Positions 55,565 through 59,298 are shown, counted from the first letter of the stretch. The stretch is DNA of 64,000 nucleotides from Candidatus Baltobacteraceae bacterium (GCA_036488875.1 DASXGW010000013.1:1-64000), one strand, 5' to 3'. Notes: a model not told the origin generated them from the letters alone. Program-made: numbers and translations.

Positions 55565-55606
55565 CGCCCTCTAGCCCTCCGGCGTTGCGGCGTGATTGGT
55601 CTCTCC

Positions 55607-55813
55607 GTGAGACCAAGGGAAGCGGTTAGGCTCCTGCTGTCCGCGGGATTCGTGGTTATACGCAAACAAGGCAGCCACGTAATTTTCGCTCATCCGGAGC
55701 ATCGCGGCCAACGTTCGATGATAGTGCCGTATCACGCCGGAAGAGAACTTTCCATCGGCGTTGAAATGACCGTACGGAGAGCGATTTTGCGCGTACAAGG
55801 CAGGCCACGATGA
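55607..55813 (+). CDS. hicA: HicA-family toxin (mRNA interferase)
   Basis: Small double-stranded-RNA-binding-fold toxin that would cleave mRNA when not bound by HicB. The protein of about 68 residues reads RPREAVRLLLSAGFVVIRKQGSHVIFAHP, with the catalytic-type His in GSH. The remainder is SMIVPYHAGRELSIGVEMTVRRAIL. The GTG at 55607 gives the normal HicA length. Another GTG at 55592 adds five residues. hicB overlaps it by 4 nt (ATGA). Confidence 0.9.
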   Translation: MRPREAVRLLLSAGFVVIRKQGSHVIFAHPEHRGQRSMIVPYHAGRELSIGVEMTVRRAILRVQGRPR

Positions 55814-56028
55814 AATACGCAGTAGTTTTTGATCCGGCAGACGATGGCTCGTGGGGCGCCGTCGTTCCAGACCTCCCGGGTTGCACGTCGGCAGGCGACA
55901 CACTCGATGAAGCGCGCCTGAACGTTCGCGAAGCTATTGAGCTATGGATTGAGGTCGAGCGTGAACGTGGTCACGATGTACCGCCACCCATTACGGTAGC
56001 CGAACCGGTCGAAGTCGGCTCCCTGTAA
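55810..56028 (+). CDS. hicB: HicB-family antitoxin
   Basis: The 72-residue partner of HicA has the partly degraded RNase H-like fold: YAVVFDPADDGSWGAVVPDLPGCTSAGDTLDEARLNVREAIELWIE. No obvious C-terminal DNA-binding HTH or ribbon-helix-helix was seen, as in the short HicB type. It overlaps hicA by 4 nt. Its stop touches the stop of the convergent nitrile-hydratase gene. The pair forms a type II toxin-antitoxin module next to an operon that interrupts the ppdK-dnaG neighbourhood. Confidence 0.9.
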   Translation: MKYAVVFDPADDGSWGAVVPDLPGCTSAGDTLDEARLNVREAIELWIEVERERGHDVPPPITVAEPVEVGSL

Positions 56029-56634
56029 CTAAACCAATGCCGTGCCGATCATGCCGTTGCGCGTGACGAGCGCGGTTAGTTCGTCTTCGCTCAGACCTTC
56101 AGTGCCCGACGGGCGCGCCGGCACGACGAGGTAGCGCGTTTCGGCGGTGCTGTCCCAAACGTCGATGTCGACACTCGGGGCGAGCGTGACGTCGAACTCG
56201 GCGAGAACGCCGCGCGGATCGCGTACCGCCCGCGAACGGTACGCTTCGCTCTTGTACCATGGGGGTGAAGGCCCAAGCAGCGCGATCGGGTAGCACGAGC
56301 AGAGCGTGCAGACGACGAGATTGTGGCGCTGCTCGGTGTTCGCGACGGCGCGCAGCTTCACCGGTGCCCAATGGCTCATGTCGATTCCCAGCTCGGTTAC
56401 GGCTTCGCTTGCGCCTTCGAGCAATCGCGCTTTGAACGCCGCGTCGGTCCAGGCGCGTGCGACCACGCGTTTTCCGTTGGCCGGCGACGCGCGAAGCAAA
56501 AAGTCTTCGACGATGCCGTCGAGAGCCGATTCGCGCACGAGATTTCGGCGTTCGAGTTCGGCGACGAGACGCTTGACGCGATTGGAGACCGCGGCACTGC
56601 GTTCGTGATCGTGCGCGTGTTCGAGAGAACTCAC
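56029..56634 (-). CDS. Nitrile hydratase alpha subunit (or thiocyanate hydrolase gamma-like)
   Basis: Metal-bearing subunit, 201 residues. The claw motif VCTLCSCYP has Cys109, Cys112, Ser113 and Cys114. Thr at position 110 is typical of cobalt-type enzymes, where iron-types have Ser. LGPSPPWYKSEAYRSRAVRDPRGVLAEF and the ending TEGLSEDELTALVTRNGMIG match nitrile hydratase alpha. The GTG start overlaps the stop of the previous gene (GTGA). The activity could be on nitriles, thiocyanate or a specialised nitrile. No activator gene was seen next to it. Confidence 0.9.
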   Translation of the reverse strand: MSSLEHAHDHERSAAVSNRVKRLVAELERRNLVRESALDGIVEDFLLRASPANGKRVVARAWTDAAFKARLLEGASEAVTELGIDMSHWAPVKLRAVANTEQRHNLVVCTLCSCYPIALLGPSPPWYKSEAYRSRAVRDPRGVLAEFDVTLAPSVDIDVWDSTAETRYLVVPARPSGTEGLSEDELTALVTRNGMIGTALV

Positions 56635-56903
56635 GACATCCGCTCCAAATACGATTCGAAAAGGTCGGCCGAGATCGTCGCCGCCTGCGCGTCGTCGCCC
56701 CACACGTCAATGCCGGCAAAACAGACCGTGTAGAGCGTTTGCACCGCCGCCGTGCCGGCCAACGCGCGTTCGTCAGCGAAGGGATACGCGCCGATGACGC
56801 GCTCGATGCGGCCCGTTCGACCGCGCAAGTAGGCCGGCAGCCGCGTGTGCCCCTCGGGATTGTTCAGGCGCGTGCGCACGCGGTCGCCAAGGTTAAAGCT
56901 CAT
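56631..56903 (-). CDS. C-terminal half of nitrile hydratase beta as a separate subunit
   Basis: The 90-residue protein reads FNLGDRVRTRLNNPEGHTRLPAYLRGRTGRIERVIGAYPF, the SH3-like C-terminal domain of nitrile hydratase beta. The RGR segment includes an arginine position that in known enzymes contacts the oxidised cysteines. It has its own ATG, overlaps the N-half gene by 11 nt and the alpha gene by 4 nt. The beta chain is a single gene in most nitrile hydratases. Split forms are known in thiocyanate hydrolase (ScnA/ScnB) and toyocamycin nitrile hydratase (ToyK/ToyL). Confidence 0.87.
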   Translation of the reverse strand: MSFNLGDRVRTRLNNPEGHTRLPAYLRGRTGRIERVIGAYPFADERALAGTAAVQTLYTVCFAGIDVWGDDAQAATISADLFESYLERMS

Positions 56904-57162
56904 CGATCGCGTCTTTTTCGTGCAGCAACGTTTCGATGGCGTGGAGCCAGCGTTCGTAGTACGAGGCGCCGAGGTATTCTTGCGGGTCCATCCGTTCGAT
57001 GGCGTACCGGAACTCGTCGAGCGTGTACGCTCCGCGCTCGAGCATCAGGCGGTTGATGGCAAAGACGCGGGCTTCCCACTCGTGATGGAACGGCGCACCG
57101 TCGTCGCGGGTCTCGATCGGGCCGAATCCGTGCATGCCGCCGACGTCGTTGATGCGACTCAC
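56893..57162 (-). CDS. N-terminal half of nitrile hydratase beta as a separate subunit
   Basis: The 89-residue protein starts SRINDVGGMHGFGPIETRDDG, then FHHEWEARVFAINRLMLERGAYTLDEFRYAIERM. This is the helical N-terminal domain of nitrile hydratase beta, including the DVGGMHGFGP arm that wraps around alpha. It ends SYYERWLHAIETLLHEKDAIDEL, where beta would normally continue through a linker to the SH3-like half. The GTG at 57162 overlaps the SPFH gene stop. Both halves have intact frames, so this looks like real subunits rather than a broken gene. Confidence 0.87.
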   Translation of the reverse strand: MSRINDVGGMHGFGPIETRDDGAPFHHEWEARVFAINRLMLERGAYTLDEFRYAIERMDPQEYLGASYYERWLHAIETLLHEKDAIDEL

Positions 57163-58070
57163 GGTGACTTCGGCGCGTTGCCCCCTGCTATGTCGAGCAG
57201 CGCCGAGCCGTTACCCATGACCGCCGGTAGGTTCCCCGACGTCCATTTATCGCGCAGCAGCTCGATCGTTTTGAGCCGCACGATGGCGTCGGCCAAGCGC
57301 GGATCGCCGCCGAACGAGTTGATCAGGTCGCGATTGGCTTTGGCTTGATACTGCGCGGTGACGTAGTTTTGCTGGCCTTGCACGCCTTTGGTCTGCAGCT
57401 CGATCTGTGCGCGTTGGAGTTCCTGTTGCGCGATGGCGCGCTGTTCGGAGGCGTCTTGATACTCCTTGCTCGGCACGATGTCCGTGACCGACACGAACGT
57501 GACGCGTACGCCCTGCGGTCCGAGCTCTCGCACGAGATCGTCGCGCAACTGGTCGCTGACTTCCTGGCGCTTGGCGATGAGCTGCGCGGCGGTATAGTTG
57601 GGCTCGATCGTCTTGAGCCACTGTTCGGTGCGCGGCTTGATGAGCTGGTCGAGGATGTCGTCGCGATAGCGCTGGGCGATCTGCGACAGCATCGCATCGT
57701 CGAGCGAATAGTTGACGGTCACGTCATTGCGCTCGACCTGCTGGTCGCGCGAAAAGGCTTCGTCTTGCGACAACTGAGCCACGACGGCCGACGTGCGCAT
57801 CGTGAGAACGCCTTGCCACGGCGCTTTGAAGTTCAACCCGGGATGGAGAACGGTATTCGTGTACGCACCGAAGTTGGTTACGACCGCGGCGTCGTTCCCG
57901 CTGACTTCCACTATCGTTCGTCCCAAAACGAGGCACGCTAAGAAGACGGCGACGCCGTAAACGACGGCGGTTATGCGCGATCCGGCTTTTTCGCCCTGAG
58001 CTAAGTACGCCACGAAACCTCCGGCGGCGCCCAGAATAGTAGAAAGAAAGAGTACGGTGGAGCTACTCAT
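57159..58070 (-). CDS. SPFH/Band 7 (prohibitin-like) membrane protein
   Basis: Two hydrophobic segments occupy residues 1-55 (TVLFLSTILGAAGGFVAYL, TAVVYGVAVFLACLVLG). The SPFH domain follows (NDAAVVTNFGAYTNTVLHPGLNFKAPWQGVLTMRT to VSVTDIVPSKEYQDA). An alanine/glutamine coiled coil (AIAQQELQRAQIELQTKGVQGQQNYVTAQ) supports ring assembly. Total 303 residues. Prohibitins organise membrane microdomains. The gene overlaps both the HD gene (8 nt) and the nitrile-hydratase N-half (GTGA), so they are probably cotranslated. Confidence 0.92.
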   Translation of the reverse strand: MSSSTVLFLSTILGAAGGFVAYLAQGEKAGSRITAVVYGVAVFLACLVLGRTIVEVSGNDAAVVTNFGAYTNTVLHPGLNFKAPWQGVLTMRTSAVVAQLSQDEAFSRDQQVERNDVTVNYSLDDAMLSQIAQRYRDDILDQLIKPRTEQWLKTIEPNYTAAQLIAKRQEVSDQLRDDLVRELGPQGVRVTFVSVTDIVPSKEYQDASEQRAIAQQELQRAQIELQTKGVQGQQNYVTAQYQAKANRDLINSFGGDPRLADAIVRLKTIELLRDKWTSGNLPAVMGNGSALLDIAGGNAPKSP

Positions 58071-59298
58071 GCGTGGCGTCGTTCAACGCAGACCGGCGAT
58101 TTCCGGCGATGCGGGCGCAGATCGTGCGCGCTTCTCCAACGTCGACGCCGGTTCTTCTTACGAACAACTTGCGCCAAAACGCCTTGCCGCTGAGCTTTGC
58201 GATGAGGTCTGAAGCCTCGCGGGCATCGATGGGTCCGGCCGGCGTTTCCACCCAGACCGTCCGCTCGTCGCCTAGGCCCAGCGGCAGACGGTGAAGCACC
58301 TGCGACTGTTCGTCGGCCCAGACTTTGTCGTCGCCGAAGCGGTCGCGCAGCGCCGATTCGCACGCTTCGAAGACGCTCAAATCGCGCTCGGCGTTGAACT
58401 CGGCGGCGAGCGCGTAGGGAACGATCCGCTCGCGTAAGGCGCGCGCCGGTTCGCTGGGTTTGTCGGCGATTGCGTCGAGCACCCGGAAATCGTCCCACCG
58501 GAGAAACTGGTCGATCGCGTCGAGCCCGCGAGGATTGGGCCAGAGCTCGCGCAGTACGTCCTGCAGCACGCGTTCGAAGATGCGGGTGGTATGGTGGAAA
58601 TACACCGAGGCAAACATCATATAGCGCGCGGTAACGAACGACTCGAGCGCGACGACGCCGCGCGCGTCGATTCCGACCGAGAGACGCCCGTTGCGCTCGA
58701 ATAAGCGCAGCGACGCGACGAGCTGCTCGGCGTCGTAACGCCCGCTGGCGACGCCCGTAAAATACGCGTCGCGCTGCAAATAGTCCATTCGATCGGCGTC
58801 GAGATTCGGTCCGCTGACGAGCTCGCGCAAAGCGGGATAGCGGCTCTGCGCGTCGCCGAGCACCAAGCCGAGAACGTCGTCGGGCGAAACCTCGAGGTCC
58901 GAGAGTCCCCGGCGCAAGCCGTCGAGCGCGAGCAGCTCGCTCGTTCGGGCCTCGTGTGCGACGCCCAAGACCGCTTCGCACGCATGGCTGAAGGGCCCGT
59001 GACCGATGTCGTGCAGCAGCAGCGCGGCGCGCACGAGGCGCCGCTGGTACGCAACGTCGGCGTCGCCGCCGAAGAACGCGCGCCCGTGGCGAACCAGCTC
59101 GTCGAAGGCGCGCGTACCCATCGCCAGGGCGCCCAGAGCGTGCGTAAAGCGCGAGTGTTCGGCCGAGGGGAACGCAAGGTACGCCAGTCCGAGCTGGCGC
59201 AAGCGCCGCAGTCGCTGCAGCGCCGGCGCGTCCAGCAACCGCGCCTCGGCTGTGGATAGTTCTATGAAGCGGTGGACCGGGTCAAAAATCCGTTTCAA
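58063..59298 (-). CDS. HD-domain phosphohydrolase (dNTPase/SAMHD1-like)
   Basis: Predicted metal-dependent phosphohydrolase, 411 residues. It has FDPVHRFIELSTAEARLLDAPALQRLRRLRQLG and His53 in RFTHALG. His96-Asp97 lie in LLLHDIGHGPFSHA. LDADRMDYLQRDAYFTGV gives the last metal Asp. The pattern fits proteins annotated as HD superfamily phosphohydrolases related to dGTPase. It starts at TTG 59298, with the dnaG ATG on the other strand sharing that base. dGTPase-like genes next to dnaG occur in other bacteria, which supports this assignment. Confidence 0.9.
   Translation of the reverse strand: MKRIFDPVHRFIELSTAEARLLDAPALQRLRRLRQLGLAYLAFPSAEHSRFTHALGALAMGTRAFDELVRHGRAFFGGDADVAYQRRLVRAALLLHDIGHGPFSHACEAVLGVAHEARTSELLALDGLRRGLSDLEVSPDDVLGLVLGDAQSRYPALRELVSGPNLDADRMDYLQRDAYFTGVASGRYDAEQLVASLRLFERNGRLSVGIDARGVVALESFVTARYMMFASVYFHHTTRIFERVLQDVLRELWPNPRGLDAIDQFLRWDDFRVLDAIADKPSEPARALRERIVPYALAAEFNAERDLSVFEACESALRDRFGDDKVWADEQSQVLHRLPLGLGDERTVWVETPAGPIDAREASDLIAKLSGKAFWRKLFVRRTGVDVGEARTICARIAGNRRSALNDATHE

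Follow-up and report, generated by a model that had tools for sequence, protein, structure and literature searches.

Three adjacent genes of the analysed DNA encode, with high probability, an activator-free cobalt nitrile hydratase (NHase) of the AnhDEA type, a cassette of three small proteins inserted between a gene for an HD-domain phosphohydrolase (HD) and ppdk. The DNA, here termed the window, is the whole stretch of 64,000 nucleotides from a Candidatus Baltobacteraceae bacterium (DASXGW010000013.1), whose phylum is Candidatus Eremiobacterota. Direct support comes from homology, gene order, protein sizes, conserved residues, the absence of a second betaN-type gene and the lack of a conserved linkage with HD or with the adjoining SPFH gene; assembly, cobalt, substrate and chaperone role are predicted from homology. 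Against this reading stand an alpha subunit that scores below the TIGR01323 cutoff, an Ile after the cobalt claw, the lack of a NicO transporter, the tight overlaps with HD and SPFH and a contig end in the sister species G073. The trio is a further example of the known activator-free three-subunit NHase type, in a phylum for which we found no description of an NHase in the open-access literature searched.

The five-gene array

The initial annotation described five minus-strand genes in the order HD, SPFH, betaN, betaC and alpha, overlapping by 4-11 nt, and all of these open reading frames (ORFs) and their family matches were confirmed. HD (58063-59298) starts with TTG and encodes 411 aa with the Pfam domains HD and HD_assoc_2. 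It is followed by the gene for a prohibitin-like SPFH/Band_7 membrane protein of 303 aa (57159-58070; PF01145 Band_7, 3.9e-28). The next gene, betaN (56893-57162, GTG start), encodes a free, AnhD-like N-terminal half of the NHase beta chain (89 aa, 10.48 kDa; PF21006 NHase_beta_N, 9.8e-32), and betaC (56631-56903, ATG start) encodes the free, AnhE-like C-terminal half (90 aa, 9.96 kDa; PF02211 NHase_beta_C, 7.9e-26). The array ends with the AnhA-like NHase alpha subunit (56029-56634, GTG start, 201 aa, 22.03 kDa; PF02979 NHase_alpha, 2.4e-71). The longest ORF of alpha begins at 56703; the start at 56634 was preferred because of homology and the 4-nt overlap. From HD to alpha, the successive overlaps amount to 8 nt (HD/SPFH), 4 nt (SPFH/betaN), 11 nt (betaN/betaC) and 4 nt (betaC/alpha). 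Overlaps of 4-8 nt with SPFH and HD suggest co-transcription, and as upstream neighbours of the trio these two genes perhaps share an mRNA with the NHase genes. On the plus strand, a HicA/HicB toxin-antitoxin pair lies between ppdk and alpha (HicA, 55592-55813; HicB, 55810-56028; PF07927 and PF15919 for the pair) and immediately abuts the stop codon of alpha.

A probable cobalt-type nitrile hydratase with a divided beta chain

The claim that the beta chain consists of two proteins was borne out by relatives. Our survey covered 149 genomes of the phylum, and an alpha gene is present in 27 of them, the window's genome included. BetaN and betaC are distinct ORFs, arranged betaN-betaC-alpha, in 24 of the 26 other alpha-bearing genomes; the exceptions are G091, which has a fused beta chain and an activator gene, and G117, which is cut at a contig end. 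Therefore an assembly error or frameshift as the cause of the split, the objection that the initial annotation itself had named, is ruled out. The split three-gene form is the common one among NHase carriers of Eremiobacterota, and activator-free three-gene NHases also occur in Dormibacterota, Streptomyces and Proteobacteria. Named genomes show the same layout, one example being a Streptomyces plasmid, where it is annotated as 'nitrile hydratase / SH3-like domain-containing protein / nitrile hydratase subunit alpha'.

Both halves align with known beta chains. BetaN matches residues 1-86 of the Pseudomonas putida Co-NHase beta chain (3qxe_B), and betaC matches residues 131-217 of the same chain and 139-225 of 1ire_B. 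In NHases, beta Arg52 and Arg157 form hydrogen bonds to the oxidised claw cysteines and their mutation abolishes activity (PMC7587978). Both arginines are present in the window: Arg52 of betaN equals beta Arg52, and Arg21 of betaC aligns with beta-Arg149 of 3qxe and Arg157 of 1ire. Across the sequences compared, Arg52 is kept in 37/37 free betaN proteins and 21/21 fused beta chains and in 2/21 activators, and the HxR arginine is found in all 56 of 56 betaC domains.

Exactly one betaN-type domain was detected in each of 26 NHase genomes and two in G091, the sole carrier of an activator gene. Since each has a single betaN domain, the genomes with a split beta chain are without a betaN-like (Co-type) activator gene, which, as distinct from Fe-type GTPase activators, is the kind that the search covered. 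The window's genome, which is 97.6% complete, contains no second betaN-type domain of a Co-type or P15K-type activator, and a hidden activator of this kind elsewhere in the genome was rejected on this ground. We also considered whether betaN is itself an activator and not a beta half. In the betaN tree, all activators fall into one clade (100/99) and the window protein lies outside, together with beta N-halves; the tree is built on 82 columns only and its inner forks are therefore weak. On this placement and the presence of Arg52, the activator reading was rejected.

The alpha subunit carries the Co-type claw motif CTLCSCYP. It scores 238.8 bits against TIGR01323 (NHase alpha) and so misses the NCBIfam equivalog cutoff of 249.85 by 11 bits; this cutoff is an annotation threshold and not a biological feature, and the Pfam cutoff is passed by a wide margin. 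The score against TIGR03887, the model for the gamma subunit of thiocyanate hydrolase (SCNase), is 155.9 bits and does not reach the cutoff of 291.45. Among solved chains, alpha subunits of Co-type NHases come closest (180-190 bits; about 181 versus 133 for SCNase gamma), and betaN gave no match to SCNase beta in the comparison with solved chains. Judged by these scores and by the unmatched SCNase beta, NHase is the better assignment. That the window encodes an SCNase is very improbable, although SCNase, too, possesses a cobalt claw and a beta chain divided in two, and its gamma and alpha subunits match window proteins at 133 and 41.7 bits: in addition to the scores, SCNase has a separate activator, P15K (referred to in PMC3511329), of which the window's genome holds no counterpart. 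The initial annotation had likened the split to that of SCNase; the kinship with SCNase is weaker than that with NHase.

The residue that follows CTLCSCYP differs between groups of NHases. Among the loci compared (L028-L142), it is Ile in the window alpha and Ile, Leu or Val throughout the window's three-gene clade, and Arg or Lys in a second three-gene clade; Trp occupies the position in all fused-beta NHases examined and in a split group from Rhodospirillales. A solo alpha on a Rhizobium plasmid (L142) has Thr. With Ile instead of Trp, the substrate range may differ. This pattern would also suit an NHase-family protein that has taken on a different role or substrate. We consider such an adaptation unlikely, as conservation is complete at the claw cysteines and at both catalytic arginines.

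The alpha tree unites the fused-plus-activator enzymes in a supported clade (95/93). Outside this clade, the activator-free split enzymes, the window alpha among them, make up at least two groups. Rhodospirillales metagenome-assembled genomes (MAGs) contribute a split-with-activator group that is nested within the fused clade, and from this position its split is read as a separate, independent fission. In the four loci from Rhodospirillales/Alphaproteobacteria MAGs (L114, L116, L117 and L125) beta is encoded by two ORFs, and on contigs of sufficient length (L114 and L125) the activator is kept. Both the alpha and the betaN tree are unrooted, were built without SCNase, Fe-type, ToyJ or S. canus sequences and give no direction of change. 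The alpha phylogeny that had been proposed as a check places the window protein with NHases and outside the fused-plus-activator clade, within a comparison set that is without SCNase gamma and ToyJ. We regard it as possible, but on balance doubtful, that the activator-free three-gene NHases represent deep lineages outside the textbook enzymes and may be ancestral, with fused beta and activator derived; if this is true, Ile/Leu/Val or Arg/Lys in place of Trp after the claw would mark a different substrate range. The post-claw residue and Arg52, kept in halves and mostly lost in activators, provide markers that distinguish the two kinds of small betaN-like protein, and these bear on the origin of the activator, a question that the S. 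canus authors did not settle.

The HD and SPFH genes and the history of the site

HD is a housekeeping neighbour of dnaG. The protein is related by sequence to the solved HD phosphohydrolases 2hek, 2q14 and 2o6i and to SAMHD1, and homologues are present in 112 of the 149 genomes. Of 16 HD stretches taken from relatives, 13 show HD flanked by a divergent dnaG and a convergent ppdk, the latter adjoining HD or set apart from it by a short gap of at most 1.7 kb. SPFH and NHase are absent from all 16 stretches. In an Actinomycetes MAG (L130:1589-5827, JANYJX010000017.1), a dGTPase-like HD gene and dnaG are followed directly by a fused-type NHase with the order beta-alpha-activator; this second, differently arranged NHase beside dnaG is probably a coincidence.

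The best solved relative of the SPFH protein is a prohibitin (60.7 bits). Close homologues occur in 6 of the 149 genomes, three of them in the window's family, and only in the window's genome do they stand beside NHase. Those of G076 and G098 are located apart from the NHase genes. In none of the relatives did the stretches surrounding NHase, which span at most about 7 kb, yield a homologue of the window SPFH at E<1e-4; among the matches listed, the nearest other Band_7 gene is about 5-7 kb from an NHase, in G122. Hence SPFH adjoins NHase in 1 of 27 NHase genomes, the window's own, with the contig of G073 stopping before the SPFH position. The trio itself occupies unrelated neighbourhoods in relatives, with no recurrent functional neighbour common to more than a few loci, and in G118 it lies about 2.4 Mb from HD on a single contig.

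These data bear on the coupling of an SPFH scaffold to NHase that the initial annotation had put forward. In such an operon the five genes would act together, SPFH scaffolding a membrane-associated NHase and the HD enzyme serving as a regulator. The overlaps of 4-11 nt make translational coupling plausible, and SPFH is the sole Band_7 protein detected in the window's genome. Nevertheless, HD is a housekeeping gene that occurs without the others, neither the close SPFH homologues of G076 and G098 nor the unrelated NHase contexts fit a joint unit, and among the 20 matches listed of 245 we found no literature report of NHase together with SPFH or prohibitin. A functional operon is thus hardly credible. 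The coupling found no support in any of the 26 other alpha-bearing genomes, and the same five-gene order was seen on this contig only, wherever the region is readable, an outcome that the initial annotation had itself named as refuting; the lack of conserved order in relatives rules out the five genes as a conserved unit. Since no relative with a readable region keeps them together, SPFH and HD look like accidental neighbours of the NHase trio, and SPFH probably does not belong to the NHase system. This part of the locus matters only if a functional link is shown, and conservation speaks against one.

In G073, the one sister species, ppdk and alpha are separated by 3 bp, which puts the trio at the same ppdk-adjacent site as in the window. 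The NHase contig of this genome ends within betaN, and the contig with dnaG starts within that gene, which would place HD and SPFH in the gap. The HicAB pair is absent from the ppdk-alpha junction of G073. The trio is a self-contained cassette, and its insertion between HD and ppdk probably took place in the genus ancestor. In the simplest history, SPFH was added at that insertion or later, and HicAB was gained between ppdk and alpha in the window lineage or lost in G073.

Predicted function and comparison with known systems

By analogy with characterised NHases, alpha would bind cobalt through the claw, and betaN and betaC would close the active site with one arginine each. The subunits are predicted to assemble into an alpha2-betaN2-betaC2 hexamer that hydrates R-CN to R-CONH2. 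Free betaN probably doubles as a cobalt-loading and subunit-swapping chaperone, as AnhD does in S. canus. The genome encodes one enzyme of the amidase family, which could hydrolyse the resulting amide. A search for cobalt transporters of the NicO family, the only family searched, found none in the genome. A rarely studied type of NHase, characterised in S. canus, is hereby extended to an uncultured phylum.

The closest parallel is the NHase of S. canus CGMCC 13662. Its genes are ordered anhD-anhE-anhA, AnhD and AnhE are homologous to the N- and C-terminus of beta, there is no activator gene, and AnhD serves as a metal and subunit-swapping chaperone (PMC7329996). The predicted masses of AnhD, AnhE and AnhA are 10.41, 11.35 and 21.33 kDa (PMC7329996), compared with 10.48, 9.96 and 22.03 kDa in the window. 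The likeness rests on the shared betaN-betaC-alpha order, on masses with halves of about 10 kDa and on the absence of an activator gene, not on sequence identity. The host belongs to another phylum, and activity, cobalt content and the chaperone function of AnhD were shown in S. canus only.

ToyJ, ToyK and ToyL belong to the toyocamycin biosynthetic cluster, and in this they differ from the window genes, which have no such biosynthetic neighbours. The enzyme from Streptomyces rimosus forms a hexamer from chains of 21.2, 10 (beta) and 11.4 kDa (gamma) (PMC8574189), and its three-subunit nature is credited to Nelp et al. 2014 as cited in PMC7329996. The half size of about 90 aa, regarded as unusual in the initial annotation, is therefore not exceptional, as AnhD and AnhE and the beta and gamma chains of toyocamycin NHase are of similar mass (PMC8574189, PMC7329996). 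The solo NHase alpha of L142 lies on the Rhizobium leguminosarum plasmid pRL23b2 (L142:658-7438, NZ_CP050089.1) between queC and IMP dehydrogenase/queE; further neighbours are a 6-carboxytetrahydropterin synthase, a phosphoribosyltransferase, a HAD hydrolase, purB and an adenylosuccinate synthetase, and the locus resembles a 7-deazapurine cluster of the toyocamycin/sangivamycin type.

Thiocyanate hydrolase of Thiobacillus thioparus (2dd4) shares with the window the split beta chain, the cobalt claw and common ancestry, but differs in much lower scores, in a larger betaC-like alpha subunit (126 aa) and in the separate activator P15K. The Co-type NHase of P. putida (3qxe) aligns with alpha, betaN and betaC over nearly their whole length and keeps the arginines and the claw. 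It differs from the window trio in its fused beta chain, its extra activator gene and the Trp that follows CTLCSCYP.
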